Assembly (NCBI RefSeq): GCF_001654865.1
Contig: NZ_LXEO01000065.1
Span: forward strand, 62,001-126,000
Reading direction: 5' to 3'
Length of the DNA stretch: 64,000 nt
DNA from: Buttiauxella noackiae ATCC 51607
GTDB lineage: Bacteria > Pseudomonadota > Gammaproteobacteria > Enterobacterales > Enterobacteriaceae
Shown here: positions 20,979-51,095 of the stretch, in pieces
Layout: every line of letters starts with the position of its first letter
Numbering within the stretch: the stretch's first letter is position 1
Notes under the pieces: model-generated
Database searches by the model: none
What the model saw: only the letters and a program-made list of their open reading frames with translations
Told to the model about the DNA's origin: nothing
Position numbers and translations under genes: made by a program

Positions 20979-20987
20979 GAGGGTGTT

Positions 20988-22910: not shown

Positions 22911-23049
22911 CGATTGTAATTAGAGCCAAAAGACAGACCTGCCAGACGATAATAATGGGCGCCGTTAGAGCGCCCAATAAACAACACTCGTCTGAAAATA
23001 ATAACTATCGCGCTCGTGCCAGATTTCTTTTTTAACTACAGGTGAAGTT

Positions 23050-24009: not shown

Positions 24010-24012
24010 AAC

Positions 24013-24630
24013 ATGAACACACCACGCCCACACGACTTACTCTGGCTTAGCGAAAGCAACGCGCTTGAAGGCGTGAGTGAAGAGTGGGTAGCAAGCCAGT
24101 GGCGGCCTCAGCTTCCAGTGGTAGTGCGGCGTGATGTGAATACTGACGCGCGCATTCCGGTAGGTGTTCGTGGAATGCGCCGCGACCAGCGTGCAGCCGG
24201 TTGGGTGAATGCCGCAAAGATTAAACGCGTCGTTTCCCCGGAATCACTGGCTTCACGCGAACTCTTAATGAAATCCCCGTTTGTTTCAATGCCGCCTGTT
24301 CAGGGGGCTATTCAACTGGCACTGCGTGAATGGCCCTGGGTTTGGGGTATCACTGGTAGTGTAGGTTATGCGCTGGCGACCGAAGTACCGGTACTGCATG
24401 CGGATAGCGATCTTGATTTAATCATTCGTTGCCCTGAGCGTGTAGAACGCGAGGCGCTATTGGAATGGCAGCAGGTCATCGGCCAGTTGTTATGCCGTGC
24501 CGATACGCAAATCGAAACACCGTTAGGGGCATTTGCGCTGGCAGAATGGTTGCGTGATGGACGCGTGCTGCTGAAAACCAGCAGTGGGCCGCATCTGGTC
24601 ACCGATCCGTGGATGTCAGGAGAAAAGTAA
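24013..24630 (+). CDS. mdcG: Phosphoribosyl-dephospho-CoA transferase
   Basis: This 205-residue nucleotidyltransferase attaches the prosthetic group made by MdcB to MdcC. The nucleotidyltransferase signature GSVGYALA (residues 115-122), followed by DSDLDLI with Asp133 and Asp135, matches the catalytic G-S...D-x-D pattern shared with CitX-like enzymes. It starts three bases after mdcF. A REP element separates it from mdcH. Confidence 0.93.
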   Translation: MNTPRPHDLLWLSESNALEGVSEEWVASQWRPQLPVVVRRDVNTDARIPVGVRGMRRDQRAAGWVNAAKIKRVVSPESLASRELLMKSPFVSMPPVQGAIQLALREWPWVWGITGSVGYALATEVPVLHADSDLDLIIRCPERVEREALLEWQQVIGQLLCRADTQIETPLGAFALAEWLRDGRVLLKTSSGPHLVTDPWMSGEK

Positions 24631-24640
24631 GGCCTTTCTT

Positions 24641-24721
24641 TTGTAGAGTGGATAAGCGAGAGCAACATCCACTGTTTACGCCAGCTCTGGCGGGTGACGC
24701 GTTGCTTACCCGCCCTACAAA
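24641..24721. repeat. REP/BIME-type element inside the mdc operon
   Basis: TTGTAGAGTGGATAAGCG opens the element and GCTTACCCGCCCTACAA closes it, forming two inverted REP-like units between mdcG and mdcH. An intra-operon REP can change message stability, so mdcH may be expressed at a different level from mdcA-G. Confidence 0.72.
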
Positions 24722-24751
24722 ACCTATTCGACGGACGTTGTTGGCAATCAT

Positions 24752-25660
24752 ATGAAAATTCTCTTTACCTTTCCCGGGCAGGGAACGCAACGTGCAGGCA
24801 TGTTGCAGACGTTGCCGCAAAATAGCGACATTATGGTGCGTGTTCGCGCTGTTTTAGGTGATGAAGCCGATTCGCTTGATACGCCTGAAGCACTGAAACA
24901 TACCCGCGCCGTTCAGCTTTGCCTTCTTATCGCTGGTGTTGCTAATGCGCAGGCGCTGGAACGTAACGGCGTGCTGCCCGATATGGTGTGCGGCCTGTCC
25001 ATCGGTGCTTTTCCGGCAGCAGTCGTTGCAGGTGCTTTGGACTTTGAAGATGCGCTACGCCTTGTCGCATTGCGCGGTGATTTAATGGAGCAGGCGTATC
25101 CGCAAGGGTATGGATTAACGGCGATCACTGGTTTGCAGTTAAGCCAGGTGGAAAAGCTGATAGAAGGTAGCGGGACTTACATCGCCAATATCAACGCCGA
25201 ACAGCAAATTGTGATTGCGGGCCGTGATAAGGATATGGCGCAAGTCGCGCAACGCGCACTGGCATCAGGGGCGCAGAAGGCGAAGCAACTGGCGGTAAGC
25301 GTGCCATCACACTGCGAATTACTGCGTGAACCGGCGCTGAAGCTGCAACAGGCTTTTGCCGATGTGACACTGACTCGCCCGCGTTGTACTTATCTCAGTG
25401 GCAGTACTGCGCGAGTGGCCTGGCAACCAGAGAAAATTGCTGAAGATTTGGCGCTGAATATGTCGCGTACCGTACGCTGGCGCGATGCGATGATCGCCGC
25501 TAACGAACGCGATGTGCGCCTGGCAATCGAAATGCCACCGGGAAGTGTGCTAACAGGTCTGACGCGACAGGCATTTCGTGAAGGTGAAATGTTGTGTGCA
25601 GAACAAAACAGCGTGGAGCTGATTAAACGCCTGGCTGAGCGCGTTAAAGAACTGCGTTAG
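24752..25660 (+). CDS. mdcH: MdcH, malonyl-CoA:ACP malonyltransferase
   Basis: This 302-residue FabD-like acyltransferase primes the carrier protein by transferring a malonyl group from malonyl-CoA. The N-terminus FTFPGQGTQ, the nucleophile elbow GLSIG (Ser83) and VPSHCELL (His187) are the expected acyltransferase motifs. It is the last gene of the operon; its 3' end overlaps the convergent mdcR by 17 bases. Confidence 0.95.
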   Translation: MKILFTFPGQGTQRAGMLQTLPQNSDIMVRVRAVLGDEADSLDTPEALKHTRAVQLCLLIAGVANAQALERNGVLPDMVCGLSIGAFPAAVVAGALDFEDALRLVALRGDLMEQAYPQGYGLTAITGLQLSQVEKLIEGSGTYIANINAEQQIVIAGRDKDMAQVAQRALASGAQKAKQLAVSVPSHCELLREPALKLQQAFADVTLTRPRCTYLSGSTARVAWQPEKIAEDLALNMSRTVRWRDAMIAANERDVRLAIEMPPGSVLTGLTRQAFREGEMLCAEQNSVELIKRLAERVKELR

Positions 25661-26888: not shown

Positions 26889-27902
26889 ATGCAGCATTTC
26901 AAACATGTTTTGCCAAAAATTTCGCTGGTTGCTACCGCTGTTGCGGCGACAATTTTACTGAGCGGATGTGGAGATGACGCAGCGCCAACAGGCCCTGTAG
27001 TCCTGAAAACAGCGTTTAACCAGTCTGAAAACAACCCACAATACAAAGCATTAGTCTCTTTCAGCGATAAGCTGGAATCTGCGACTAATGGTCGCTACAA
27101 ACTTGAAATTCACCCTAACGAACTGTTAGGTGACCAGCGCGCTTCACTGGAACTGGTTCAGTCTGGCGCGATTCAGATGGCGGTCGTTGCCAACCCACTG
27201 GTGGAAAACTTTAATAAAAACTTCTCTGTTCTGGCGATGCCGTACGTTTACGACAACCCGGAACATCAACGCAAAGTGTTTACTTCGGGCGTGCTGGATA
27301 ACCTGTTTGCTTCCACCAAAGGCACTGGTTTTGAAGTTATTACCGCCTATACAGCAGGCGCTCGCAGTGTTTACACCAAAGGTGCCGCAGTCACCAGTCC
27401 GGCCGATATGCAGGGCAAAAAGATCCGCGTAATGCAGTCCGACACCATGATCAAAATGCTGTCTTGCATGGGTGGAACCGGCGTACCGATGGGCCAGGGT
27501 GAAGTGTATTCAGCGATTCAGCAGGGCGTTCTGGATGGTGCTGAAAACAATGAGATCACTTATGCCGATCTGAAGCAGTACGAAGTGGCTCCTTACTTCT
27601 CTGCAACGCGTCATGTCATGGTGGCTGATTTGCTCGTCGCGAATGAAAGCTTCATTGCCAAAATGGATGAAAGTGACCGCGAACTGTTCCGTAAGCTTGC
27701 TAAAGAGAGCACCCAGACTCAGTTTGAGCTTTGGGACAAAGCCCTTGATGGTGCGCGTAAAACCGCAAAAGACAACGGTGCAGTCTTCACCGAAGTGGAT
27801 ATCAAACCATTCCAGGAACGTTGCAAACCGCTGCAAGCAGCCATGTTGACCACCCCGGAACAAAAAGCGCTGTACGAAAAAATTCGTGAGTTGGCCGAGT
27901 AA
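26889..27902 (+). CDS. TRAP transporter substrate-binding protein (DctP family)
   Basis: This 337-residue solute-binding protein has an N-terminal signal with a lipobox-like LLSGC (Cys near residue 27), so it may be membrane-anchored. The DctP body shows KLEIHPNELLGDQR and the conserved arginine segment GKKIRVMQS that typically binds the substrate carboxylate. Downstream genes encode the small and large membrane subunits. Proximity to mdcR suggests malonate or another dicarboxylate, but specificity cannot be read from sequence. Confidence 0.9.
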   Translation: MQHFKHVLPKISLVATAVAATILLSGCGDDAAPTGPVVLKTAFNQSENNPQYKALVSFSDKLESATNGRYKLEIHPNELLGDQRASLELVQSGAIQMAVVANPLVENFNKNFSVLAMPYVYDNPEHQRKVFTSGVLDNLFASTKGTGFEVITAYTAGARSVYTKGAAVTSPADMQGKKIRVMQSDTMIKMLSCMGGTGVPMGQGEVYSAIQQGVLDGAENNEITYADLKQYEVAPYFSATRHVMVADLLVANESFIAKMDESDRELFRKLAKESTQTQFELWDKALDGARKTAKDNGAVFTEVDIKPFQERCKPLQAAMLTTPEQKALYEKIRELAE

Positions 27903-27917
27903 TTCGGCCTGAAGTCA

Positions 27918-27937
27918 GGGGGACGAGGATGTCCCCC
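27918..27937 (+). promoter_or_regulatory. Stable hairpin between TRAP binding-protein and small-subunit genes
   Basis: GGGGGAC (27918-27924) pairs with GTCCCCC (27931-27937) around GAGGAT. It encloses the first possible ATG of the small subunit (27929), which argues that translation starts at the next ATG (27950). Such stems often protect the binding-protein message. Confidence 0.6.
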
Positions 27938-27949
27938 GTGGAGATAAAA

Positions 27950-28492
27950 ATGAAAGTTACCCAGTCCATTCCCTCCGCCACAGCATCCAAATCTGATTTT
28001 TATTCGCATGTCACACGAGTAAAACAGGCCATTGATAAAGCGGCGTCTTATCTATGTATTTTGATTGTTAGCTTAATGACGCTGCTGGTGACCTGGCAGG
28101 TTGCGTCGCGTTATTTATTTAATAGCCCGAGCGCGGTCAGTGAAGTGCTGGCGCGATATTTATTTATCTGGCTGGTGCTTATTGGTGGGGCCTATGTTTT
28201 TGGCCTGCGTGAGCATATGGCGATCACTTTTATGCGCGACAAAATGCCGCGTAAATTGCGTCTTTCACTGGAAATTATCGGTGAGTTGGCGACTTCAGTA
28301 TTTGCATTACTGGTGCTGACTATCGGTGGTTATATCGGTATGAGCCGCCAGATGGCGCAGCTCGACTCTGCATTACAAATTCCTATCGGCATTATCTACA
28401 TTGCGATTCCACTGAGTGGCGCAATGACGCTGTTCTATTGTCTGTATAACCAATATGGGTTGTTCAGAAAGTTCTCTTCGAAACAAGATTGA
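27950..28492 (+). CDS. TRAP transporter small membrane subunit (DctQ family)
   Basis: This protein of about 180 residues has four predicted membrane helices (VSLMTLLVTWQVASRY, VLARYLFIWLVLIGGAYVFG and two later ones), typical of DctQ. I prefer the ATG at 27950 (MKVTQSIPS), preceded by GGAG at 7 bases. The ATG at 27929 is buried in a GC-rich hairpin and would add seven residues. The stop TGA directly precedes the large-subunit reading frame. Confidence 0.88.
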   Translation: MKVTQSIPSATASKSDFYSHVTRVKQAIDKAASYLCILIVSLMTLLVTWQVASRYLFNSPSAVSEVLARYLFIWLVLIGGAYVFGLREHMAITFMRDKMPRKLRLSLEIIGELATSVFALLVLTIGGYIGMSRQMAQLDSALQIPIGIIYIAIPLSGAMTLFYCLYNQYGLFRKFSSKQD

Positions 28493-28504
28493 TTGGGTGT
28501 CGAT

Positions 28505-29812
28505 ATGGATATTGCAATTATTGTTGCTCTGGTGATGTTTAGCGGCGTATTTATTCTGCTGCTAGCGGGAACGCCAATTAGTATTAGTATTGGGATTTCA
28601 TCTTTCGCCGCGATGTGTCTTATTTTACCGTTAGATGGCGCGATATTAACCTCTGCCCAACGCGTTTTTGTTGGTCTCGACTCTTTTGCCCTATTAGCCA
28701 TTCCCTTCTTTATTCTGGCCGGGAATTTAATGAACAATGGCGGGATAGCCATTCGTTTAATTAACTGTGCAAAAATGGTTAGTAACTTCCTGCCGGGTCC
28801 TTTGGCGCAAACCAACGTCGTGGCTAATATGCTGTTCGGCTCGATCAGCGGTTCTGGTGTGGCATCTGCGGCGGCAGTGGGTGGCATCATGTCACCAATC
28901 CAGAAAAAAGAGCAGTACGACCCGGCGTTTAGTGCCGCGGTGAATATCGCTTCTGCACCAACGGGTATGCTGATTCCACCAAGCAACTCTTTGATTGTTT
29001 ACGCAACGGTTGCGGGCAGTGTGTCTATTTCTGCGCTGTTTATGGCGGGTTACGTGCCTGGCATTTTGTGGGGCTTAGGCGTAATGCTGGTTGCTGGTTT
29101 TATTGCTAAACGCCGGGGTTATGTCGCTGATCGTTCTGCCAATAAAGGCCAGACGCTGCGCATTCTGTTTGATGCGATTCCTAGTCTGATGATGATCGTT
29201 GTGGTTATCGGCGGCATTCTGGGCGGCGTATTTACCGCAACAGAAGCATCCGCGATTGCGGTGGTTTATTCACTGGTTCTTGGCATTATTTATCGCAACA
29301 TTAAAGTTGAAGATTTGCCGAAAATTTTCCTCGCTACTGCGAAAATGACAGCGATTGTTATTTTCATGCTGGCAGCGTCATCGATTATGTCGTGGGTAAT
29401 GGCATTTACCAAAATTCCGGCATTGATTGCATCCGGCTTACTTTCAGCAACTGATAGCTTTATCGTTATTCTGCTGATTATGAACCTGGTATTACTGCTG
29501 GTGGGCACCTTTATGGACCCAACGCCTGCGGTATTAATCTTCACCCCAATCTTCCTGCCAATTTGTATGCAGTTTGGAATGGATCCGGTGCATTTCGGAA
29601 TCATGATGGTGTTCAACTTATCGCTCGGCACAATCACGCCACCGGTAGGGCCAATATTATTTACCGGCTGTAAGGTCGGGGATATTAAGATTGAGCGCGT
29701 GATTAAACCGTTGCTGCCTTTCTTTGCGGTGATTGCGATTGTTCTGATGATGGTAACGTATTTACCGGCTATCTCTATGGCGCTGCCACAGAGCATGGGT
29801 CTGGTGAAGTAA
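28505..29812 (+). CDS. TRAP transporter large membrane subunit (DctM family)
   Basis: This protein of about 435 residues has many hydrophobic helices. It is the ion-coupled translocation subunit that accepts substrate from the DctP protein. DctM features include the glycine-rich SGSGVASAAAVGGIM and IPPSNSLIVYATV. The ATG at 28505 (MDIAIIVALV) is preferred; an in-frame TTG at 28493 immediately follows the small-subunit stop and could also initiate. It is the last gene of the TRAP operon. Confidence 0.9.
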   Translation: MDIAIIVALVMFSGVFILLLAGTPISISIGISSFAAMCLILPLDGAILTSAQRVFVGLDSFALLAIPFFILAGNLMNNGGIAIRLINCAKMVSNFLPGPLAQTNVVANMLFGSISGSGVASAAAVGGIMSPIQKKEQYDPAFSAAVNIASAPTGMLIPPSNSLIVYATVAGSVSISALFMAGYVPGILWGLGVMLVAGFIAKRRGYVADRSANKGQTLRILFDAIPSLMMIVVVIGGILGGVFTATEASAIAVVYSLVLGIIYRNIKVEDLPKIFLATAKMTAIVIFMLAASSIMSWVMAFTKIPALIASGLLSATDSFIVILLIMNLVLLLVGTFMDPTPAVLIFTPIFLPICMQFGMDPVHFGIMMVFNLSLGTITPPVGPILFTGCKVGDIKIERVIKPLLPFFAVIAIVLMMVTYLPAISMALPQSMGLVK

Positions 29813-30630: not shown

Positions 30631-31063
30631 GTCGAAATCCTCAGAGCAGAATCAGTTTGACGTTAGTATTGCCACATAGCAGCGTTGCTGCTCGGGCGCG
30701 TAGTCAATACGGGATCTTTTTTTCATAGTAACGCCAATGAATTAGAGGAAGCACCGGGATTGGGTACCCGGAGGGACGCCAACCAACTCCCAATACCCAT
30801 TCATAAGCCTTTCCAATACTTCCCCTAAAATGCCCATCACATCACAATTTCGCTCAAAAATTAACACTGTCATCAATACATTCACCATCACTAATTCGTG
30901 AGACTAATCACATTAACCCAGCGAATTATCATGAATCGGCCACTTTTTGTGGTGCATATCACTCTTGCCTGCGGGATTTCCACTTCAAAGTGGAAAACAA
31001 CTCGCTACAAACCTTTAACGCCCGCCGATACCTTAAAAGCCTGACAGTGAAGAGGTACGTAGT
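30631..31063. promoter_or_regulatory. Control region of the amino-sugar-acid (DUF4310-4312) operon
   Basis: This 433-base gap between divergent genes has no supported ORF. Its striking element is a perfect inverted repeat, TTTCCACTT-CA-AAGTGGAAA (30977-30996), about 70 bases before the first gene. That is a suitable position for an operator bound by the PRD regulator encoded at the far end of the cluster. Confidence 0.5.
30977..30996. promoter_or_regulatory. Perfect 9-base inverted repeat, operator candidate
   Basis: TTTCCACTT (30977-30985) and AAGTGGAAA (30988-30996) are exact reverse complements separated by two bases. The dyad lies upstream of the operon start and is not followed by a T tract, so an operator is more likely than a terminator. 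Confidence 0.5.
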
Positions 31064-31399
31064 GTGAATGACGGAGCGGTAATGGTTAATGAAGCCGGGA
31101 GTACCGAGAAAACGCTACTCACAGAGCGAGTGCTGGCGTTTATCACCAGGCTGCTAAAGAACAGAAACATCACGCCGAACGCGGTGCAGGAACAGATGTT
31201 GGCATCCCACGTTCGTGCCATGGCGCATAGGTCACTGACCGGCGAGCCATTGCCAGAAGTTGAAGAGAGCCTGTTTGACGAAATCTCTGATGACTCTCTG
31301 GAAATGGCAAAAGAAGTGGTGGAGCAATTTGGCAATTTACCGATTGAAGAAGCGTGGTTGTTGTCAGTGCATTTCGAAGTCGCGAAAGACAATCTTTGA
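31064..31399 (+). CDS. Stand-alone PRD-domain protein (EF_0829/AHA_3910-like)
   Basis: This 111-residue cytosolic protein is essentially one PTS regulation domain, with histidines in SHVRAMAHRS (about residues 45-54). It has no DNA-binding or RNA-binding domain. PRDs are phosphorylated by HPr or EII proteins on histidine. A GTG start at 31064 has AGAGG upstream; an ATG at 31082 (MVNEAGS) with GGAG is equally plausible. It heads the operon and is known in the same context in Enterococcus and Aeromonas clusters (TIGRFAM-type family, recalled from memory). Role unknown: possibly a PTS phosphorylation sensor or a subunit acting with the regulator at 37815. Confidence 0.85.
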   Translation: MNDGAVMVNEAGSTEKTLLTERVLAFITRLLKNRNITPNAVQEQMLASHVRAMAHRSLTGEPLPEVEESLFDEISDDSLEMAKEVVEQFGNLPIEEAWLLSVHFEVAKDNL

Positions 31400-31416
31400 A
31401 TAATCAGGAGATTCAG

Positions 31417-31779
31417 ATGGAACAGATTACCGTAGTTATTGGCGACCGTTTGGGTAAAGGCCAGAAAGTGGCCGCAGGGATTGAAAAAGCGGGTGGCCGC
31501 GCCGTGGTGATTGCAGGCGTTGCTGCTGATATGAAACTGGGTGATGTGATGAAAGCAGAAAATGCCACCTTTGGTATCTCTTTCTGCGGCAGCGGTGGTG
31601 CCGGGGCTATCACCGCGCAGACTAAACACGGCTACAAAGCCAAGTACGGCATGCGCTCTGTGGAAGAAGGTGTTACTGCGATCAACGAAGGCAACAATGT
31701 TCTGGGCTTCGGCTTTATGGACAAAGAAGAACTGGGCGAGCGTCTGGTGCAGGCCTGGGCCAAGAAGTACGGAAAGTGA
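31417..31779 (+). CDS. Glycine-rich SFCGS family protein
   Basis: This 120-residue cytosolic protein of unknown function has the hallmark GISFCGSGGAGAI near residues 53-65, with Cys57. The start at 31417 (MEQITVVIGD) follows CAGGAG at six bases. An upstream in-frame ATG inside the previous gene is rejected. The N-terminal VVIGDRLGKGQKVAAGIEKAGG and the Cys-Gly-Ser-Gly-Gly loop recall a nucleotide- or phosphate-binding fold. The cysteine loop is reminiscent of PTS EIIB phosphocysteine loops, which is inference only. It always accompanies DUF4310-4312 genes, as here. Confidence 0.85.
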   Translation: MEQITVVIGDRLGKGQKVAAGIEKAGGRAVVIAGVAADMKLGDVMKAENATFGISFCGSGGAGAITAQTKHGYKAKYGMRSVEEGVTAINEGNNVLGFGFMDKEELGERLVQAWAKKYGK

Positions 31780-31781
31780 GT

Positions 31782-32078
31782 ATGAAAGAACACTTCTCAG
31801 AAACGGTGAGAGTGAAGGGGCGTGGTGATACCAAAGCCAAAGCCTTTGCCGATGCTCTGAACCATGTTCAGGGCTCGGTTCTGAAATCTTCTCCCCACAT
31901 TTTACTGCGTATTGAGCCACAGGATGTGCAGGTTGTTCAGGCGCGGGTACAGGTTAAGAAAGAGGCATTTTTGTTCTTCTTTCTGAAGCGCGAAAAACGC
32001 ATGTTCAGCGTGGAGCTGGATGTTTCGGTCAACGTAACAGCGATAAATCTCGATAAGGTAGATTTCGCCACGACCTAA
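31782..32078 (+). CDS. DUF4312 family protein
   Basis: This 98-residue small cytosolic protein starts MKEHFSETVRVKGRG, two bases after the preceding stop. An in-frame GTG two codons earlier is possible. No known catalytic motif is seen; the KEAFLFFFLKREKRM stretch is hydrophobic-basic and may contact the membrane partners. It is conserved with the SFCGS, DUF4311 and DUF4310 proteins as a four-gene block. Function not established; it may be a soluble subunit of the membrane complex. Confidence 0.82.
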   Translation: MKEHFSETVRVKGRGDTKAKAFADALNHVQGSVLKSSPHILLRIEPQDVQVVQARVQVKKEAFLFFFLKREKRMFSVELDVSVNVTAINLDKVDFATT

Positions 32079-32101
32079 AATCACACAGAAAGGACAGACA
32101 G

Positions 32102-32878
32102 ATGTTCTTAATAATACTAATAAAATCGCTAATAATCGGGGGGCTCGTCGGCGTAGGTGTTGGCGCTGGAGCTGCACGTATGTTTCACGCGCCAACCACT
32201 CAAGGGATGGGCGCTTTTCGTACTCTTGGTGAACTTAACTCCTGTGAAGGAGACCCGGCTTCACACTTCTCATTTGGCTTAGGTTTCTTCTTCAACGCCT
32301 GGGCGTCGTCCGTTGCGGCCGGTGCTTTTACCCAGGATGTTGACCACCGCATTATCCCAAACTGGGGCGCTGCCGCGTTGATGGTGAAAAACCGTAACGT
32401 CGCGCAAACCCTGCATGACCCGAAAAAGATGGCTATCGCTTGCGGTGTCATCGGCATGATTGTCGTTACCTTCCTTAACACCACCGCTTCCGCCGTTCCG
32501 GCAGCATTACAGGTTACCGCAGTAAAAGTTCTGGTTCCTGCGGCGAACCTGCTGGTTAACACCGTGATGCCAGTGATCTTCTGGCTGGCGGCGATTGATG
32601 CCGGTAAGAAATCAGGCTTCTGGGCGACGATTTTCGGCGGCTGCGCACAACTGATTATGGGCAACGCTGTGCCTGGTTTGGTACTCGGCATCCTGATTGG
32701 TAAAGGTGTGGAAGAGAGCGGCTGGAACCATGTCACTAAAGTGATGATGGTGGCGATTGTCGCGCTATTTGTCTTGAGTGGTTTCTTCCGCGGCTTCGAC
32801 ATGAAAATGATCGAATCCTTCCATCTGACTGTGCCGAACTGGCTGGATCTGATTCATAACTCGCTGAGCGGAAAATAA
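32102..32878 (+). CDS. DUF4311 family polytopic membrane protein
   Basis: This 258-residue inner-membrane protein has about six predicted helices. Examples are LIIGGLVGVGVGAGAARM (about 10-27), IACGVIGMIVVTFLNT and VMMVAIVALFVLSGFF. A glycine-rich N-terminus and the conserved-looking LGELNSCEGDPASHFSFGLGFFFNAWASS (positions about 42-70) mark the family. It is expected to form a membrane complex with the DUF4310 protein, probably as a transporter of the substrate degraded by the downstream enzymes. That role is inferred from context only. Confidence 0.85.
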   Translation: MFLIILIKSLIIGGLVGVGVGAGAARMFHAPTTQGMGAFRTLGELNSCEGDPASHFSFGLGFFFNAWASSVAAGAFTQDVDHRIIPNWGAAALMVKNRNVAQTLHDPKKMAIACGVIGMIVVTFLNTTASAVPAALQVTAVKVLVPAANLLVNTVMPVIFWLAAIDAGKKSGFWATIFGGCAQLIMGNAVPGLVLGILIGKGVEESGWNHVTKVMMVAIVALFVLSGFFRGFDMKMIESFHLTVPNWLDLIHNSLSGK

Positions 32879-32889
32879 GGGAGCCTGTG

Positions 32890-33531
32890 ATGGAAGAGAA
32901 TAAAGGTTTTTGGTACGCCGACTGGTCGTTCCCGATTTTTGTTGGCCTGCTTTCCTCCGGCGTGTTTGCCGGAACACACATGTACTACCTGTATGGCATC
33001 GGCGCATTTAACGAAGTGGCGTTTGTTTCCATGCTGCGTGCCGGGATAGATACCGGTGTATATGGCGCAGTCGCCGCATTTGGTGCCAGCTTCCTGTTTG
33101 CCCGCATCATTGAAGGCTCATTAGTCGGGATTCTGGATATCGGCGGGGCGATTCAAACCGGTGTTGGGCTGGGCGTGCCAGCGCTGTTACTCGGCGCGGG
33201 TATCATCTTCCCGGTTGCGAACTTTGCGGCTTCACTGGTAACCGGCCTGGTGATTGGCCTGGCGATTGGTTATGTGATTATTCTGGCGCGTAAATTCACC
33301 ATCAACCAGAGCAATTCAACCTACGGCGCGGACGTAATGATGGGCGCAGGCAACGCTTCCGGTCGCTTCCTTGGGCCGTTGATTATCCTGAGCGCAATGG
33401 CCGCTTCCATTCCGATTGGTATCGGCTCCTTGATTGGTTCTCTGCTGTTTTATCTGTGGAATAAACCGATTACCGGTGGCGCGATTCTTGGCGCAATGCT
33501 GTTTGGGGCATTCTTCCCGATTGCTTTGTAG
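32890..33531 (+). CDS. DUF4310 family polytopic membrane protein
   Basis: This 213-residue inner-membrane protein has about six helices and repeated Gly-Ala-rich segments (GAIQTGVGLGVPALLLGAGI, LVTGLVIGLAIGYVIILAR). I prefer the ATG at 32890 (MEENKGFWYADWSFP), six bases after AGGGAG; a GTG directly in front is possible. It follows DUF4311 by 11 bases, so the two are co-translated. Together they resemble a two-component permease, but no family member known to me has a demonstrated transport activity. Confidence 0.85.
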   Translation: MEENKGFWYADWSFPIFVGLLSSGVFAGTHMYYLYGIGAFNEVAFVSMLRAGIDTGVYGAVAAFGASFLFARIIEGSLVGILDIGGAIQTGVGLGVPALLLGAGIIFPVANFAASLVTGLVIGLAIGYVIILARKFTINQSNSTYGADVMMGAGNASGRFLGPLIILSAMAASIPIGIGSLIGSLLFYLWNKPITGGAILGAMLFGAFFPIAL

Positions 33532-33540
33532 TCCTTTTTG

Positions 33541-33564
33541 GGCGGGAAGCGTATGCCTCCCGCC
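33541..33564 (+). promoter_or_regulatory. Intercistronic hairpin between permease and enzyme genes
   Basis: GGCGGGA (33541-33547) pairs with TCCCGCC (33558-33564), with an inner GC/GC pair. It lies between DUF4310 and the amidohydrolase gene and could set different message levels for the two halves of the operon. Confidence 0.5.
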
Positions 33565-33579
33565 AGTCAGGAGAAAACC

Positions 33580-34713
33580 ATGTTTGACTTAATCCTGCGT
33601 AACGCCTGTCTGGTGGATGATACCGTCATCGACATTGCGCTGACGGATGGAAAAATTGCCGCGCTTGGCGAGATCACAGGCGAGGCAAAAGAAGAGCGCC
33701 AGCTTAATGGCGAATACTACGTCAGCGCGGGCTGGATTGATTCTCACGTCCACTGCTACCAAAAATCCCCCATTTATCATGACGATCCTGACAGCATCGG
33801 CATTAATACTGGCGTGACGACCGTTATTGATGCCGGGAGCACAGGCGCTGACGATATCGACGAGTTTTACGAGCTAACTCGCAAAGCGACGACGGATGTT
33901 TACGCATTACTGAACGTCTCGCGTGTCGGGTTGATTGCACAGAACGAACTGTCGAATATGGCGAATATCGACAACATCGCCGTGCGTGATGCGGTAAAGC
34001 GCCATCCTGGATTTATCGTTGGCATCAAAGCGCGCATGAGCAGCAGCGTAGTAGGGGAAAACGGCATCAAACCGCTGGAACGTGCGAAAGAAATCCAGCG
34101 CGAAAATGGTGATTTACCACTGATGGTACACATCGGTAATAACCCGCCGGATCTTGATGAAATTGCCAATTTACTGACAAGCGGCGACATCATTACTCAC
34201 TGCTACAACGGCAAACCGAACCGGATTCTCACGCCTGCTGGTGAATTACGAGCGTCGATTTCCAGTGCGATTGCGCGTGGCGTGCGTCTCGATGTGGGCC
34301 ACGGCTCCGCCAGTTTCAGCTTCGAAGTGGCGAAAATCGCTATCAGTAAAGGGATTCTGCCCCACACCATCAGCTCCGATATTTACTGCCGCAATCGTAT
34401 TAACGGCCCGGTACATAGCCTCGCAGTGGTGATGTCTAAATTCCTCTCCATTGGCATGTCTCTGCCACAAGTGATTGATTGCGTTACCGCACATGCAGCG
34501 CAAGGGTTACGCCTGACGAATAAAGGGCGCTTATCCGTGGGGCTTGATGGCGACCTGACTATTTTTGCCAAACGCCGTCAACCGACGATCTTTATCGATT
34601 CAGAAAGTCAGACGCTCCAGGGCGAACAACTGCTGGTGGCACTTGCCGCCGTTCGCGCCGGGAAGTGGTTTGTTACCGAACAAGGGAAGGAAGAACATGT
34701 CTTCGATTTATGA
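33580..34713 (+). CDS. Amidohydrolase/deacetylase-family metallohydrolase
   Basis: This 377-residue TIM-barrel metal-dependent hydrolase is related to dihydroorotases. Ligands seen are the HxH pair in DSHVHCYQ, a lysine candidate for carbamylation in GIKARMSSS, histidines in MVHIGNNPPD and ITHCYNGK, and an aspartate in ISSDIYCRN. All metal positions therefore appear intact. I chose the ATG at 33580 (MFDLILRNACLV), with CAGGAG upstream. Its 3' end overlaps the next gene by 17 bases. In this context it probably removes an acyl, carbamoyl or lactam group from an amino-sugar acid before the lyase step; the substrate is not known. Confidence 0.88.
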   Translation: MFDLILRNACLVDDTVIDIALTDGKIAALGEITGEAKEERQLNGEYYVSAGWIDSHVHCYQKSPIYHDDPDSIGINTGVTTVIDAGSTGADDIDEFYELTRKATTDVYALLNVSRVGLIAQNELSNMANIDNIAVRDAVKRHPGFIVGIKARMSSSVVGENGIKPLERAKEIQRENGDLPLMVHIGNNPPDLDEIANLLTSGDIITHCYNGKPNRILTPAGELRASISSAIARGVRLDVGHGSASFSFEVAKIAISKGILPHTISSDIYCRNRINGPVHSLAVVMSKFLSIGMSLPQVIDCVTAHAAQGLRLTNKGRLSVGLDGDLTIFAKRRQPTIFIDSESQTLQGEQLLVALAAVRAGKWFVTEQGKEEHVFDL

Positions 34714-35815
34714 GAAATACAATTTAAAACAAGTCATTAATGCATCTGGCCGCATGACGGCACTTGGTGTTTCTACCCCGCGCCCGGAAGTGGTCGAAGC
34801 CGTAGCTAACGGTATGAATCATTATTTTGAGATGAAAGACCTGGTGAACAAAACCGGGGAGTACATCGCCAAACTACTGGACGTTGAAGCCGCAACGGTG
34901 GTGTCTTGCGCATCTGCGGGTATCGCGCAATCCGTGGCGGCTGTGTTAGTGAAGGATAACGCCTGGCTGATAGAAAACCTGCATGGCACGCCACTTGAGA
35001 ATAACGAAATTGTGTTGCCGAAAGGCCACAACGTGAACTTCGGCGCACCGGTTGGCACCATGGTTTATCTCGGTGGTGGCAAAGTGGTGGAAGCGGGTTA
35101 TGCCAACGAATGCTCTGCCGAACAACTAGCTGCTGCCATCTCCCCGCGTACCGCCGCCATTTTGTATATCAAATCGCATCACTCGGTACAGAAAAGCATG
35201 CTCAGTGTTGAGCAGGCGGCGGTCGTGGCGCGCAAACATAACCTGCCGCTGATTGTTGATGCTGCCGCAGAAGAAGATTTGCAGTGCTACTACCGCGCAG
35301 GTGCTGATCTGGTGATTTACAGCGGTGCAAAAGCAATTGAAGGGCCAACCAGCGGCCTGGTAATTGGCAAAGCGCAGTACGTTGAGTGGGTGAAGCTGCA
35401 AACCGGCGGTATTGGCCGCGCCATGAAAGTGGGCAAAGAGGGCATTCTTGGACTGACCTGTGCCATCGAACACTACTTAACAGCAGCCAAAGAGAGTGGG
35501 GTGCAAATGGTCGAAAAAATGACGCCGTTTATCAGTAGCCTCAACACCCTTAATGGCGTGAGCGCCCGTGTAGTGTGGGATTCTGCAGGGCGTGATATCG
35601 CGCGTACTGAGATTAAGTTCGATGAAGCGGTTATCGGCATCAGCACCAGCGAACTGGTGAGCGCGTTGAAACAGGGTGAGTACGCGATTTTCTTCCGCGG
35701 CTACAAAGCCAATGAAGGGATTATCGAAGCCGATGTGCGTAGCGTCAGCCCGCAACAGTTAGAGATTATTTATCACTGTATTAGCGCATTGGTAAGCAAG
35801 GAGAAGCAGGCATGA
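34697..35815 (+). CDS. PLP-dependent ammonia lyase of the D-glucosaminate-6-phosphate (DgaE) family
   Basis: This 372-residue SelA-related fold-type I PLP enzyme has the Schiff-base lysine in IYSGAKAIEGPTSG. In Salmonella, DgaE converts D-glucosaminate-6-phosphate to 2-keto-3-deoxygluconate-6-phosphate and ammonia. The ATG at 34697 (MSSIYEKYNLKQ) lies inside the end of the amidohydrolase gene, with GGAAGGAAG upstream. It overlaps the aldolase gene by 4 bases. The D-glucosaminate PTS genes of Salmonella (dgaABCD) are not here; the DUF4310-4312 block occupies that position. Confidence 0.88.
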   Translation: MSSIYEKYNLKQVINASGRMTALGVSTPRPEVVEAVANGMNHYFEMKDLVNKTGEYIAKLLDVEAATVVSCASAGIAQSVAAVLVKDNAWLIENLHGTPLENNEIVLPKGHNVNFGAPVGTMVYLGGGKVVEAGYANECSAEQLAAAISPRTAAILYIKSHHSVQKSMLSVEQAAVVARKHNLPLIVDAAAEEDLQCYYRAGADLVIYSGAKAIEGPTSGLVIGKAQYVEWVKLQTGGIGRAMKVGKEGILGLTCAIEHYLTAAKESGVQMVEKMTPFISSLNTLNGVSARVVWDSAGRDIARTEIKFDEAVIGISTSELVSALKQGEYAIFFRGYKANEGIIEADVRSVSPQQLEIIYHCISALVSKEKQA

Positions 35816-36552
35816 AACTGACCCCGAACTTTTACCGTGACCGTGTATGCCTGAACGTGCTGGCGGGTTCGAAAGAGAACGCGAAAGAGATTTATGACGC
35901 CGCGCAAGGTCATGTGTTGGTCGGCGTGCTTTCTAAAAATTACCCTGATGTAGCAACTGCCGTGGCTGATATGCGTGAATACGCGACGCTTATCGACAAT
36001 GCATTGTCGGTTGGCCTTGGCGCGGGTGATCCGAACCAGTCGGCGATGGTCAGTGAAATCTCCCGCCTGGTGCAACCGCAGCATGTAAACCAGGTATTTA
36101 CCGGCGTGGGCGCAAGCCGTGCGCTGCTTGGGCAAAACGAAAGCGTGGTCAATGGCCTGGTTTCCCCAACGGGGATGGTTGGCATGGTGAAAATTTCCAC
36201 CGGTCCGCTAAGCTCACTCTCCTCTAATGGCATTGTGCCGGTAGATACTGCTATTGCATTGCTTAAAGATATGGGCGGCAGCTCAATCAAATATTTCCCG
36301 ATGGATGGGCTGAAATACTGCGATGAGTTCCACGCTGTGGCACTGGCCTGTGCAAAACATGATTTCTGGCTGGAGCCGACTGGTGGTATCGATCTCGAAA
36401 ACTACGAAGAAATCCTGAAGATCGCTCTGGATGCGGGAGTGAGCAAGATCATTCCACATATTTACAGCTCAATTATTGATAAAGCGAGCGGTAATACGCG
36501 TCCGGAAGATGTGCGCACTTTGCTGGATATGACGAAGAAGTTGGTTGGCTGA
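35812..36552 (+). CDS. KDPG-type aldolase (DgaF family)
   Basis: This 246-residue TIM-barrel class I aldolase is expected to split 2-keto-3-deoxy-6-phosphogluconate (or a close analogue) into pyruvate and glyceraldehyde 3-phosphate. The Schiff-base lysine is probably in SSIKYFPMDGLKY, followed by LEPTGGIDLENYEEI, which is typical of DgaF-like proteins. Start and previous stop overlap as ATGA. It is the last enzyme of the main operon; a REP element follows its stop. Confidence 0.88.
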   Translation: MKLTPNFYRDRVCLNVLAGSKENAKEIYDAAQGHVLVGVLSKNYPDVATAVADMREYATLIDNALSVGLGAGDPNQSAMVSEISRLVQPQHVNQVFTGVGASRALLGQNESVVNGLVSPTGMVGMVKISTGPLSSLSSNGIVPVDTAIALLKDMGGSSIKYFPMDGLKYCDEFHAVALACAKHDFWLEPTGGIDLENYEEILKIALDAGVSKIIPHIYSSIIDKASGNTRPEDVRTLLDMTKKLVG

Positions 36553-36554
36553 TT

Positions 36555-36590
36555 GGCGGCGGATGGCGCTGCGCCTATCCGCCCTATAAA
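36555..36590. repeat. REP-like unit
   Basis: GGCGGATGGCGCTGCGCC followed by TATCCGCCCTATAAA is a single REP-type unit between the aldolase and lactonase genes. Confidence 0.6.
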
Positions 36591-36614
36591 TGCGACAAAC
36601 AATGAGGAACTCCA

Positions 36615-37766
36615 ATGCCTGCAACACGTAATCTCCTTATCGCTTCACTTGCTCTGCTCGCTGGAACTGCAACAGCACAGAATCAATATGCCTGGGTTGG
36701 TACGTACAATCCCAATGGCGAAGGGTTGTACCGTTTTCAGGTGGACGCGAAAACGGGTGCACTGAGCAATAAAACGTTAGTCAGTAAGATCCCAAATGCG
36801 GCACAGCTAACGGCATCGAATGATGGCAAAACGTTGTATGTGGCGAGTGAAATGGAGAAGGGCGTAATAGCAGCCTTACGTGTTGGAGATGACGGAAGCC
36901 TGAAAGAGCTAAACCAGGTTCCATCAGGTGGAGCAGGGCCGGTTTATCTGTCGCTTACTCCAAACGGGCGCCATCTGCTGGTGGCAAATTACATCAGCGG
37001 CTCCGTTGCCGTGTTGCCGGTAAAAGAGGACGGCAGCCTTGGTGAAGCTACCGATACTCAACAAGATTCCGGGCCTCCAGGAGCCGCCAAACCTGAAGCC
37101 GCAGTAGAAGGTAGTTTTGCGATAAGCGATCATAACGGCCCACATGCTCATATGATCAGTGCCGATCCCAGTGGGAAGTTTGTGTTTACCACCGATCTTG
37201 GGCTGGATCGGATCTATCAATATCGTTTCGATGACTCCACCGGAAAGCTCACCCCCAACGATCCTCCTTACATTGATGCCTCATCAAAAGGTGCGGGGCC
37301 ACGCCATTTTGTCTTCACGCCAAAGGGCGATGGCTTATGGTTGATCAACGAAGAATCTTCTACGCTTACCCACTACCAACTTGATGTAGCTAAAGGAACC
37401 CTAACCGAGGGCGAGAGCATTTCCTCGCTACCAGAGGGGTTCAAAGGAACCAACTTTGCTGCGGGTCTGGTGTTGAGTAAGGACGGGAAACAGCTGTATG
37501 TGGCGAACCGTTTGCACAACAGTATTGGGCATTTTAGCGTGACCGCGAATGGCAAGTTATCGCATCAGGATGATATCTGGACACGTGGCGATTACCCACG
37601 CACCTTAACCCTCGACCAGAATGGAAAGTACCTTTACGTCATGAATCAGCGTAGCGATAACATTACTCGCTTTAGTGTGTCGCCTGAGGGTGGAAAACTG
37701 ACGTTTATTGAGGATTACAGTGCGGTTGGAAGTCCGTCACAGTTGATTCTGACGCCTGCTAAGTAG
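36615..37766 (+). CDS. Exported beta-propeller lactonase (YbhE/Pgl-like family)
   Basis: This 383-residue seven-bladed propeller protein of the 6-phosphogluconolactonase (lactonase) family shows repeated blade motifs such as SNDGKTLYVAS, TPNGRHLLVAN and SKDGKQLYVAN. A signal peptide (residues 1-21, ending GTATA|Q) sends it to the periplasm, unlike cytosolic Pgl. It probably hydrolyses a sugar lactone outside the cytoplasm, giving the aldonic acid that the neighbouring permease could import. This link is inference. A ribosome site GAGGAACTCC precedes the ATG. Confidence 0.87.
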   Translation: MPATRNLLIASLALLAGTATAQNQYAWVGTYNPNGEGLYRFQVDAKTGALSNKTLVSKIPNAAQLTASNDGKTLYVASEMEKGVIAALRVGDDGSLKELNQVPSGGAGPVYLSLTPNGRHLLVANYISGSVAVLPVKEDGSLGEATDTQQDSGPPGAAKPEAAVEGSFAISDHNGPHAHMISADPSGKFVFTTDLGLDRIYQYRFDDSTGKLTPNDPPYIDASSKGAGPRHFVFTPKGDGLWLINEESSTLTHYQLDVAKGTLTEGESISSLPEGFKGTNFAAGLVLSKDGKQLYVANRLHNSIGHFSVTANGKLSHQDDIWTRGDYPRTLTLDQNGKYLYVMNQRSDNITRFSVSPEGGKLTFIEDYSAVGSPSQLILTPAK

Positions 37767-37775
37767 TTGCAGTAT

Positions 37776-37794
37776 CGGGCGCCTTGCGCGCCCG
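37776..37794 (+). terminator. Hairpin between lactonase and regulator genes
   Basis: CGGGCGC (37776-37782) pairs with GCGCCCG (37788-37794) around a 5-base loop. No T tract is seen, so it is at best a weak terminator. Confidence 0.45.
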
Positions 37795-37814
37795 CTTAAT
37801 GAAAGGAAACGGCT

Positions 37815-39725
37815 TTGAGATTCCCAAACCTTCGACTGGCTCAGTTGTTTGAGATGCTGCAAAACGAGACGCTGCCCCAGGATGAGCTTGCGCGACGTTT
37901 ATCTGTTTCTACTCGCACGGTACGCACAGATATCACGGCTTTAAATGCGTTAATGGCCGGGCACGGTGCCCAGTTTGTGCTTAGCCGTGGTGAAGGCTAT
38001 CAACTCAATATTGCCGATCGGGATCTCTATCAGTCGCTTGTGCAGCAGCCTTCGCGCCAACTGCGTATTCCGCGTAATTCTCCGGATCGTGTGCATTATC
38101 TGGTGGTGCGTTTTCTGACGTCCGCCTTCTCTTTAAAACTCGAAGATCTGGCCGAAGAGTGGTTTGTTAGTCGTGCGACATTGCAAAGCGATATGGCTGA
38201 GGTTCGTGAGTGGCTGGCTCGCTACAACTTGACGATTGAAACCCGCCCGCGCCACGGCATGAAGCTGTTTGGCAGTGAAATGTCGGTGCGTGCCTGTCTG
38301 ACCGAGCTGCTCTGGAAACTCACACAGGAAGATTGCGAAAATCCACTGCTCACTGAAGAAGTGCTCAATGCCGGTGTACCAGAACAACTGGCGGCAGAGC
38401 TGCACAATTGTTTTACGCGTTGCCGTATCCGTCTGACTGACGAAGGTGAGCAGTTTATCCGTTTATACTGCGCCGTTGCGGTTCGCCGTATCAGCGAAGG
38501 TTACCCATTACCGGAATTTAGCGCCGAAAATGTAGACGAAGCGGTGCGCGAAGCCGCAAAACAAATCACCGTACTGCTACAGGGTCTTGCCGGTAAAGCG
38601 CTTTCCGAGGCGGAAGAACAATGGCTGCAAGTTCATATTGCCTCGCGCCAGGTGCAAGAGGTAGCCGCGAGCGTTATCAGTGCTGACGATGATGAAGCGC
38701 TGGTGAATTACATTCTGAGCTTTATCAACAATAACTATAACTACAACCTACTGACCGATAAGCAGCTACATGCTGATTTGCTCACGCATATCAAAACGAT
38801 GATTACCCGTGTGCGCTATCAGATAAATATTCCTAATCCCCTGCTAGGCAATATCAAACAACACTACCCGATGGCTTATGACATGACGCTTGCGGCGGTG
38901 TCGAGCTGGGGGAAATACACGCCTTATGTCATCAGTGAAAACGAAATTGGTTTCCTGGTGCTGCATATTGGGGTGGGGCTTGAGCGGCACTACAACATTG
39001 GTTATCAGCGCCATCCGCGCGTGCTGTTGGTTTGCGATACCGGCAATTCAACGGTCCGCATGATTCAGGCGATGTTGCTGCGTAAATACCCCCAAATTGA
39101 GGTCACGCGGATCATTTCCCTGCGAGATTATGATCAGCTCGACGGCGTTGAAGAGGATTTTGTTATTTCCACGGCGCGCATTAGCGATAAACAAAAGCCC
39201 ACCGTGGTAGTGGCCCCGTTCCCGACAGAGTACCAACTTGAGCAACTGGGCAAACTGGTGCTGGTGGACCGCACGCGCCCGTACATGCTGGAAAAATTCT
39301 TTGATGCCAGCCATTTCAGGGTCGTTGATGAGCCGATGACGCAGCAGGAATTATTCAGCACGCTTTGCCAGCAGCTTGAGGACGAAGGCTATGTCGCTGG
39401 TGATTTTTATCCGTCGGTGGTCGAGCGCGAGGCTATCGTCAGCACCGTATTGGGTGAGGGGATTGCACTGCCTCACTCATTGGGGCTGATGGCGAACAAA
39501 ACCGTGGTGTATACCGTGCTTGCACCACAAGGTATTCGCTGGGGAGATGAAACGGCGCATGTCATCTTCTTGCTGGCTATCAGTAAAAGCGAGTACGAAG
39601 AAGCGATGGCGATTTACGATCTGTTTGTCACGTTTCTACGTGAAAGGGCGATGCCACGTTTGCGCGATAGCAAGAGTTTTGAGGAGTTTAAAGCAGTAGC
39701 AATGGATTGTTTGAGCAGGTTTTAG
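37815..39725 (+). CDS. PRD-containing transcription regulator (BglG/MtlR type) with EIIB- and EIIA-like domains
   Basis: This 636-residue regulator begins at a TTG preceded by AAAGGAAA. Order: HTH_11 (about 1-60, DELARRLSVSTRTVRTDI); a second winged helix (about 90-160); PRD1 (about 170-285, His274 in VHIAS); PRD2 (about 290-395, His325 and His384). An EIIB-like loop VCDTGNST follows, with Cys407. The C-terminus is a mannitol-type EIIA domain with ALPHS (His554). Such proteins switch activity by PTS-dependent phosphorylation. It is the last gene of the cluster and probably activates the 31064-36552 operon. Confidence 0.92.
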   Translation: MRFPNLRLAQLFEMLQNETLPQDELARRLSVSTRTVRTDITALNALMAGHGAQFVLSRGEGYQLNIADRDLYQSLVQQPSRQLRIPRNSPDRVHYLVVRFLTSAFSLKLEDLAEEWFVSRATLQSDMAEVREWLARYNLTIETRPRHGMKLFGSEMSVRACLTELLWKLTQEDCENPLLTEEVLNAGVPEQLAAELHNCFTRCRIRLTDEGEQFIRLYCAVAVRRISEGYPLPEFSAENVDEAVREAAKQITVLLQGLAGKALSEAEEQWLQVHIASRQVQEVAASVISADDDEALVNYILSFINNNYNYNLLTDKQLHADLLTHIKTMITRVRYQINIPNPLLGNIKQHYPMAYDMTLAAVSSWGKYTPYVISENEIGFLVLHIGVGLERHYNIGYQRHPRVLLVCDTGNSTVRMIQAMLLRKYPQIEVTRIISLRDYDQLDGVEEDFVISTARISDKQKPTVVVAPFPTEYQLEQLGKLVLVDRTRPYMLEKFFDASHFRVVDEPMTQQELFSTLCQQLEDEGYVAGDFYPSVVEREAIVSTVLGEGIALPHSLGLMANKTVVYTVLAPQGIRWGDETAHVIFLLAISKSEYEEAMAIYDLFVTFLRERAMPRLRDSKSFEEFKAVAMDCLSRF

Positions 39726-49198: not shown

Positions 49199-49501
49199 AA
49201 CTCAGTCCTTAGCAGTGCAAGATCATCGGAAGTAGCACAAAGCAGTACAGGACAATCTTTCGTTTTGTTTCATTTACTCAACTTCATGCTTAAATAAAAT
49301 CTATAGAAAAGAAAACGAAAGGTCAATGTAAGAAAAGCAATAAAACGAAAAATGTGATCCAGAAAAGGATCTGTTTTAATTATTTCATTGATTTAAATGA
49401 TTATTCTTAAATATTAGATAGTCGAAGTGATTTTAAACGAAAGGAAAAGAAAGGTCTGTCGCGGGGAAAGCGACAGACAAAAGTGAGGAGCAACGAAAGT
49501 A
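49199..49501 (-). promoter_or_regulatory. agaS promoter region with AgaR-like operator tracts
   Basis: This 303-base gap between agaA and agaS has no ORF. It carries several copies of the AgaR-type pattern (runs of CTTTC/GTTT). They are CTTTCGTTTTGTTTCATTT near 49257-49275, its inverse AAAAGAAAACGAAAGG near 49307-49322, and a weaker copy near 49328-49352. AAACGAAAGGAAAAGAAAGG lies at 49435-49454. The agaA terminator lies at the right end. Confidence 0.65.
49443..49478 (-). terminator. Terminator of kbaZ-agaVWEFA
   Basis: On the minus strand GTCTGTCGC, TTTCCCC, GCGACAGAC (49478 to 49454) is followed by CTTTCTTTTCC. It is a perfect 9-base stem plus a T-rich tract 24 bases past the agaA stop. 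Confidence 0.8.
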
Positions 49502-51066: not shown

Positions 51067-51095
51067 ATTGTTTTATCTCGCTTACAGGGATTCAC

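Follow-up and report, generated by a model that had tools for sequence, protein, structure and literature searches.

The Salmonella dga operon serves the use of D-glucosaminate and encodes a phosphotransferase system (PTS) permease, DgaABCD, together with the enzymes DgaE and DgaF. The ong cluster of Pseudoalteromonas employs an amidohydrolase and a pyridoxal phosphate (PLP) deaminase on the way from N-acetyl-D-glucosaminate (GlcNAc1A) to 2-keto-3-deoxy-6-phosphogluconate (KDPG), acetate and ammonia (PMC9537276); we propose the same net conversion here. A further point of comparison is the EF_0829–EF_0839/AHA_3910–3917 cluster, covered by the NCBIfam models TIGR03577–TIGR03583 and TIGR01437, which are mostly named hypothetical equivalogs. 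Here we describe a block of this last kind in a 64,000-nucleotide stretch of DNA from Buttiauxella noackiae ATCC 51607 (contig NZ_LXEO01000065.1, positions 62,001 to 126,000; the window), where ten tandem plus-strand genes span 31064–39725. Like dga, the block has a lyase with a phosphate site and a DgaF-type aldolase; it also encodes four proteins of the families SFCGS, DUF4312, DUF4311 and DUF4310 (the DUF proteins). It is a real and widespread catabolic operon, and its enzymes very probably require a phosphorylated amino-sugar acid. The reading that we prefer, at a probability of about 0.5, is that it imports an N-acyl amino-aldonate through a non-canonical PTS-coupled importer and degrades it by way of KDPG.

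Enzymes, substrate and distribution of the block

Family matches to Pfam and NCBIfam were judged by curated cut-offs (Table 1). Every protein from the small PRD protein to the aldolase lies above the cut-off of its own NCBIfam model, and the genes stand in the order seen in relatives. The NCBIfam model is what certifies the PRD protein, whose Pfam PRD match stays below cut-off; for the regulator, Pfam domains serve this purpose. An earlier annotation made from the sequence of this locus (the original prediction) had named DUF4310, DUF4311, DUF4312, SFCGS, amidohydrolase, lyase and aldolase genes; all were recovered above cut-off by Pfam or NCBIfam, and its proposal that the operon breaks down an acylated amino-sugar acid is supported. 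Absent from its gene list was the lactonase (36615–37766), an accessory gene. Adjacent genes overlap by 4–17 bases or are separated by 8–62 bases, which makes co-transcription plausible. As predicted, family matches gave no kinase among the ten genes; nor did Pfam give a sodium/solute symporter (SSS) there, and apart from the DUF proteins the conserved core encodes no recognised transporter.

We mapped the lyase onto Salmonella D-glucosaminate-6-phosphate ammonia lyase (DGL; PDB 7lc0), in which His162, His163, the SGAK lysine, Arg301, Arg332 and Arg346 correspond to H161, H162, K212, R303, R334 and R348 of the window protein. The SGAK lysine is chain position 213 in 7lc0 and is called Lys-217 in one passage on DGL (PMC9529869). 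The same paper places the substrate phosphate near the three arginines by manual docking, rather than in a structure with bound substrate (PMC9529869). Our alignment held 26 sequences, the window and 25 of 26 loci (that of Aeromonas caviae KAM479 gave no lyase). The phosphate-site arginines, the second histidine and the PLP lysine are invariant in all 26 lyases, and the first histidine, the counterpart of DGL His162, is present in 25. Because the phosphate-site arginines are kept, the lyase very probably acts on a 6-phosphorylated substrate, in line with the original prediction. The earlier label of a DgaE-type ammonia lyase holds as family membership (TIGR01437) and fails on the strict D-glucosaminate-6-phosphate lyase equivalog NF047797 (373.3 bits, cut-off 600), so that we class the protein as a DgaE-family enzyme and not as a certified DgaE. 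The predicted DgaF-type aldolase passed its equivalog, NF047796, and is the one match to its family in the Buttiauxella genome.

Two PDB entries closely match the amidohydrolase: 8wzy (E = 3.7e-190), deposited as a dihydroorotase, and 2ics (5.5e-107), deposited as an adenine deaminase. Both names are probably misassignments; we take the related cog3964 enzymes to be deacylases or esterases. Residues H56, H58, K150, H184, H207 and D267 (HxH, Lys, His, His, Asp) are invariant in the aligned loci and presumably act as ligands. GlcNAc1A would be the simplest substrate to require first a deacylase and then a glucosaminate-6-phosphate-type lyase. The operon perhaps acts on an N-acyl-2-amino-2-deoxy-aldonate, with GlcNAc1A as the best candidate, and an exported lactonase would fit lactone products. 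In two Aeromonas strains, matches to OngB and OngC were distant or absent and the route was left open (PMC11653859); one Aeromonas record carries the block, as does a family of genomes that we take for Aeromonas. If GlcNAc1A is the substrate, the block would supply a phosphorylated route for chitin-oxidation products, which that study left open (PMC11653859).

Co-occurrence with lytic polysaccharide monooxygenases (LPMOs) was tried as support for GlcNAc1A and set aside. LPMO matches occur in 27 of 63 block-bearing genomes and in 78 of the 331 that lack it (Fisher p = 0.003), and 17 of the 27 come from one family, in which all 17 block genomes have an LPMO; an association driven by one family is not counted as evidence. 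A family of small genomes has 18 members with the block (one a fragment only) and no LPMO match. By coordinates, a chitin LPMO/GbpA-like gene lies about 16–27 kb from DUF4310 in six genomes, with housekeeping-like genes between the two in both cases inspected. Both inspected genomes belong to the Enterobacteriaceae; in one, the LPMO locus (10–3630) also has a GH20 hexosaminidase, and in the other it spans 1534–2982.

A scan of a genome collection gave at least 498 relatives of DUF4311, of which we kept the best 80 as loci. These are close relatives, labelled Enterobacterales bar one contig labelled Chryseobacterium, and the closest named ones are Buttiauxella. The first eight genes are present in all 80 loci in a single order, the regulator in 79 (the remaining locus is incomplete in extent) and the lactonase in 46. 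With four annotated records added (84 loci), no insert above 321 bases separates block genes in 83. DUF4311 was found in 12 of 398 sampled genomes of the phylum, all of them of the same family as the window, and DUF4310 in 1 of 369 of the class (the Buttiauxella genome itself). Sampling of the order gave DUF4310 in 63 of 394 genomes, and in one of these the match is a mere 31-residue end. From the DUF4310-positive genomes of the order we drew 14 regions, all from outside the genus and 12 from outside the family. The nine-gene core was recovered by tblastn in 13 of them, the 14th being a 4.3-kb contig, and the lactonase in one. Scanning the flanks in 7 of the 14 regions gave 19 open reading frames (ORFs), none of them a kinase or a transporter; their matches were to fatty-acid synthesis, protease, helicase, lyase, TPM-domain, LemA and similar proteins. 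In one genome the block adjoins urate-oxidase-type and dienelactone-hydrolase-type genes (12886–15193 of its region).

Among plasmids, the block is carried by two from Klebsiella (the second known by its DUF4311 match only), one from Aeromonas, two from Bartonella and one from Enterococcus faecalis, the single Aeromonas record being incomplete. This record, from A. caviae KAM479, has no amidohydrolase or lyase match and a short DUF4310 match. Identity between the window and E. faecalis is 68% for DUF4311, 71% for DUF4310, 71% for SFCGS and 48% for DUF4312. Relatives were also sought in a collection of viral contigs, where none were found.

Table 1 Features of the block in the window, with the matches that identify them.
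Feature	Position	Strand	Match or remark
CRP-like site	30897..30912		1 mismatch to TGTGA-N6-TCACA; like sites kept upstream in relatives
Second CRP-like site	30948..30963		2 mismatches
Small PRD protein, EF_0829 family	31064..31399	+	TIGR03582 131 bits; PF00874 E 0.0073, below cut-off
SFCGS protein (EF_0830/PF14272), soluble, invariant Cys57, probable distant YhfU/DUF2620 relative	31417..31779	+	218.5 bits
DUF4312 protein (EF_0831/PF14189), soluble, faster-evolving, without invariant His or Cys	31776..32078	+	127.1 bits
DUF4311 membrane protein (EF_0832/PF14188), ~6 hydrophobic segments, highly conserved	32102..32878	+	516.7 bits
DUF4310 membrane protein (EF_0833/PF14187), ~5 hydrophobic segments, likely ATG at 32890	32887..33531	+	393.0 bits
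Amidohydrolase/deacetylase, EF_0837 family	33580..34713	+	TIGR03583 559.1 bits; PDB relatives 8wzy, 2ics
DgaE-family PLP ammonia lyase	34697..35815	+	TIGR01437 600.8 bits, cut-off 385.3
DgaF-type KDGP aldolase (EF_0839/PF07071)	35812..36552	+	NF047796 390.6 bits, cut-off 300
7-bladed-propeller lactonase, signal-peptide-like N-terminus (by eye), accessory	36615..37766	+	PF10282 3.8e-101
Regulator: HTH_11, Mga HTH, PRD, EIIB-like Cys-motif stretch, EIIA type-2 domain with GIALPH	37815..39725	+	Pfam domains

Regulation and the PTS link

The two sites upstream of the block resemble TGTGA-N6-TCACA, which we take to be the CRP consensus. With up to two mismatches, such sites were found upstream at 79 of the 80 loci, and with one mismatch at 34; among 1,547 control stretches drawn from these loci the counts were 118 and 4. 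The 80 upstream regions are related and hence not independent counts. CRP-like sites fit a carbon-catabolic operon, and the block is probably regulated by CRP and by its PRD/EIIA regulator. Of the domains that had been assigned to the regulator, the PRD and the EIIA (PF00359, 1.4e-19) stood, and the EIIB-like part was reduced to a Cys motif. The cysteine of this stretch is conserved in four of four regulators, and no Pfam PTS match was found there in the three tested. The window and Bartonella regulators both have the EIIA type-2 domain, and its GIALPH motif is present in these two and in Klebsiella.

A PTS gene beside the block was observed in Bartonella. On plasmid 2 of Bartonella sp. HY406, the nine block genes precede a gene whose 671-residue product combines HPr with a complete EI. 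Its GLHARP and TGGATSHVAILAR sequences, presumably the HPr and EI active-site motifs, are intact. The gene table of this 55.7-kb plasmid, of a kind that can be incomplete, lists no other PTS gene. A plasmid of HY761 has the same HPr–EI arrangement in the part covered (domains and motifs were tested in HY406 only); it shares protein accessions with HY406 and is therefore not independent. An intact HPr–EI beside the block, with no other listed PTS gene on the plasmid, points to a need for PTS phosphate, and we consider the PTS link of the module well supported. The block probably needs this phosphate for its regulator, for transport or for both.

On the Bartonella plasmids (8047–10062 and 15405–17420 of their loci), HPr–EI and the block adjoin a type VI secretion cluster.

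Relatives of the four DUF proteins

By hydropathy, DUF4311 and DUF4310 are polytopic, as had been predicted for two of the four small proteins, and SFCGS and DUF4312 have no hydrophobic segment. Cys57 of SFCGS is invariant in 26 of 26 sequences, and DUF4312 has no invariant His or Cys across the same number. As the sole invariant Cys or His of the two soluble proteins, Cys57 is a candidate phospho-carrier.

We report here, as new, a probable distant kinship between SFCGS and YhfU/DUF2620. Against YhfU of Cetobacterium, the window SFCGS reached a Smith–Waterman score of 70 (shuffle mean 31.5, z = 6.5, reached by 0 of 500 shuffles); against six other YhfU proteins, z was 2.1–3.2. When 26 SFCGS proteins were compared by BLASTP with 8,709 other mechanical ORFs, a YhfU was the best non-self match for 16 of them, and a YhfU hidden Markov model (HMM) placed three real SFCGS proteins above all 2,000 shuffles. 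Profile–profile comparison gave a collinear, weak alignment, and SFCGS and DUF2620 matched each other weakly and reciprocally in Pfam (against the DUF2620 model, E = 0.16 and 0.034; 12.6 and 14.8 bits, below the cut-off of 25). An invariant cysteine in C-x-x-G is common to both families.

The Cetobacterium yhf operon reads YhfZ, PRD, DUF2620, YhfT, amidase, phosphotriesterase homologue, PLP enzyme, YhfX and mutase. It shares with the block the order of a PRD protein, a small Cys protein, a membrane protein, an amidohydrolase-fold enzyme and a PLP enzyme, but YhfT is a single protein of about 430 residues, no counterpart of DUF4312 was seen and the other enzymes differ. The named proteins of the yhf operon are YhfY (the PRD protein), YhfU/DUF2620, YhfT, Php, YhfS and YhfX. 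Homology of DUF4311 and DUF4310 to YhfT was not found (hhalign E = 0.063 and 0.38, HMM scores below shuffles, shuffle z −0.9 to 1.2), and the membrane parts of the two operons are linked by gene order only. Single hhalign E-values are weak here because the alignments are shallow (Neff, the effective number of sequences, about 1.3–2.3). An equation of DUF4311 with YhfT was dropped: the weak PF14188 match in E. coli, below cut-off, is at 710299, far from yhfT at 4280909, and a comparable weak match in the Buttiauxella genome is a DnaJ-type protein, presumably DjlA-like. In one 2.5-Mb genome, a divergent YhfT (50% to Cetobacterium) has no YhfU, phosphotriesterase-homologue or PLP-enzyme match within 4.3 kb.

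Comparisons with PTS permeases used true EII proteins, among them those of a mannose-family Aga-type operon in the window itself (48044–55607, mostly minus strand, 8 kb from the block). We take its genes to encode a SIS protein, a deacetylase, EIIA, EIID, EIIC, EIIB (this one also by Pfam), a GatZ/KbaZ-like protein and a DeoR-type regulator. SFCGS and DUF4312 had no clear relation to these EIIA, EIIB, EIIC and EIID proteins, and DUF4311 and DUF4310 lie above Pfam cut-off for their own families only. Residues ~101–195 of DUF4311 can be aligned to the C-terminal region of AgaE-type EIID. Mean scores for 3 of 15 EIID proteins were 58–63, compared with 43.1 (s.d. 4.8, best 52.4) for a panel of 29 membrane proteins; the other 12 were at panel level, two EIIC proteins scored 54–56, one reversed EIID scored 54.3, and the DUF4311 of Bartonella scored higher with an unrelated protein of the panel. 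With hhalign, E was 0.055 from shallow alignments. The likeness of DUF4311 to EIID is a lead only. Two other candidates were rejected: DUF4310 as an EIIC, with scores not above the panel or reversed EIIC, and SFCGS as a mannose-type EIIB, for which the common DRLxxGQ motif came without significance. A weak match to DUF2232 (PF09991) covers residues 141–235 of DUF4311 (32522–32806; E = 0.0045) and recurs at this position in the proteins of E. faecalis (E = 0.034) and Bartonella (E = 2.1).

Routes of entry and known systems

According to the PTS-coupled reading, the exported lactonase, where present, would open a lactone in the periplasm. DUF4310 and DUF4311 would form a membrane pore, to which SFCGS and DUF4312 would add cytosolic subunits, and the substrate would be 6-phosphorylated during or right after entry with phosphate from EI/HPr, for which Cys57 of SFCGS may be the carrier. 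The amidohydrolase, to judge from its family, would remove the acyl group. The sequence strongly supports the two remaining steps, in which the DgaE-family lyase would release ammonia from the 6-phosphorylated amino-sugar acid and leave a KDPG-type keto acid, and the DgaF-type aldolase would cleave the keto acid to pyruvate and glyceraldehyde-3-phosphate. That the DUF proteins transport the substrate is likely, and that phosphorylation occurs during transport is plausible. If it does occur on entry, the block would encode a kind of PTS permease in which none of the known EII domains is present. A wider proposal, speculative and rather doubtful at present, is that SFCGS–DUF4312–DUF4311–DUF4310 and a sister YhfU–YhfT system form a further PTS-type permease superfamily, with a two-protein pore and a phosphocysteine carrier on an RpiB-like fold, fed by HPr or by the EIIA of its own regulator; the block would then serve a phosphorylated route for N-acetylglucosaminate released from oxidised chitin, a counterpart of the non-phosphorylated ong route that would also fill the Aeromonas gap.

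Several observations weigh against the PTS-coupled reading or its parts. The four DUF proteins match no PTS EIIA, EIIB, EIIC or EIID family in Pfam (none at E = 1), and with three mannose-type EIIB proteins SFCGS gave z = 1.0–3.1, the best score being reached by 6 of 500 shuffles. No EIIA is encoded in the block outside the regulator, the E. faecalis regulator has none, and the Bartonella HPr–EI may serve the regulator only. For the YhfU relation, 10 of the 26 SFCGS queries did not rank YhfU first, E-values ran from 0.001 to 5 and fell below 0.1 in 7 queries only, all of which belong to a single group of small, related genomes, and an SFCGS HMM placed two shuffles above the best real YhfU. AlphaFold2 models of DUF4311 and DUF4310, built from 37 enterobacterial sequences each, were too low in confidence for use (predicted local distance difference test scores of 42.4 and 44.5), probably because sequence diversity is scant. 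In the lyase, the carboxylate-binding Arg226 of DGL is Lys in the window, and Lys in 16 and Arg in 10 of the 26 sequences. Within the family of the window, LPMOs are found in 8 of 25 genomes with the block and 2 of 9 without it (p = 0.69), and the Buttiauxella genome has no LPMO match. Outside the core of the 80 loci, a kinase nearby is possible. In E. faecalis, three genes separate DUF4310 from the amidohydrolase, for a PF02378 EIIC, a protein of 99 residues and a MupG-type protein, and a PfkB kinase lies beyond the aldolase (itself found by tblastn).

The original prediction had named a separate transporter and kinase as what would count against it, and both are present in or next to the E. 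faecalis block, in that lineage only: of the 84 loci it is the sole one with an insert between DUF4310 and the amidohydrolase. These additions may serve to take up a glycoside of this acid, or phosphorylation in E. faecalis may in truth proceed through them. A promoter of EF_0839/EF_2975 is listed as active in urine (PMC2912369).

The kinase bears on a simpler possibility that we take seriously, namely that the DUF proteins import the substrate without phosphorylating it, that this step falls to an ATP-dependent kinase encoded elsewhere, and that EI/HPr controls the PRD/EIIA regulator only. The missing EII homology and the position of the Bartonella HPr–EI gene, directly adjoining that of the regulator, agree with it. 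So does the ong precedent, where GlcNAc1A enters by a plain SSS transporter and passes a deacetylase and a deaminase before late phosphorylation by KdgK (PMC9537276). Against this stand the core itself, which has no room for a kinase at 83 of 84 loci, the 19 flanking ORFs of 7 regions, which include none, and the lyase phosphate site, kept in 26 of 26 sequences. The invariant Cys of SFCGS would also have no obvious role in a plain permease.

In another reading, SFCGS and DUF4312 would be a soluble RpiB-like isomerase or epimerase beside a separate simple permease of DUF4310 and DUF4311. The C-terminal half of SFCGS matches RpiB (PDB 2vvr E = 0.19, Pfam 0.017, NCBIfam 0.0018) with Cys57 on Cys66, the catalytic cysteine of RpiB, and YhfU gives a similar weak match (0.077). 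We nevertheless regard this as unlikely: all of these matches, which cover the C-terminal part only, are below curated cut-offs (15.6 bits against 24.7 in Pfam), an open-chain aldonate should require no ring isomerase, and SFCGS is always one gene, DUF4312, away from the membrane genes (80 of 80 loci), as YhfU directly precedes YhfT. It is very unlikely that the substrate enters by another system and that the DUF membrane proteins are a membrane enzyme, an exporter or a sensor. Candidates for such an importer exist in the EIIC inside the E. faecalis block, unique among the 84 loci in its position, and in a TRAP transporter 1.3 kb upstream in the window, which was rejected as the real importer since TRAP genes neighbour the block in 6–7 of 84 loci only. 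We take 26889–29812 to be this TRAP set, and 18439–25660 to hold malonate-decarboxylase-type genes, an auxin-carrier-like permease and a LysR regulator.

A literature search, with most subscription journals outside its reach, found no paper that names DUF4310, DUF4311 or DUF4312, and publications on the EF cluster families, SFCGS, PF14272, TIGR03577, TIGR03583 and 8wzy assign no function in title or abstract. All genes of the window block from PRD to aldolase fit the NCBIfam cluster models; the pathway, the PTS link, the CRP-like sites and the YhfU relation are new here, and loci other than E. faecalis are without its EIIC/MupG insert. The membrane gene in 63 of 394 genomes of the order, and the block in Enterococcus, Aeromonas and Bartonella, give the module a wide reach. 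Unlike the dga operon, the block has no mannose-family PTS genes; the four DUF proteins stand in their place, and a deacylase and often a lactonase are added. The ong cluster differs in its SSS transporter, in the absence of phosphorylation before 2-keto-3-deoxygluconate, in KdgK and in a fold-type III deaminase (PMC9537276), and in a deacetylase that is a subtype V Cys/His/His enzyme (PMC12017989), whereas the block combines an HxH/Lys/His/His/Asp amidohydrolase and a SelA-type lyase with probable early phosphorylation.

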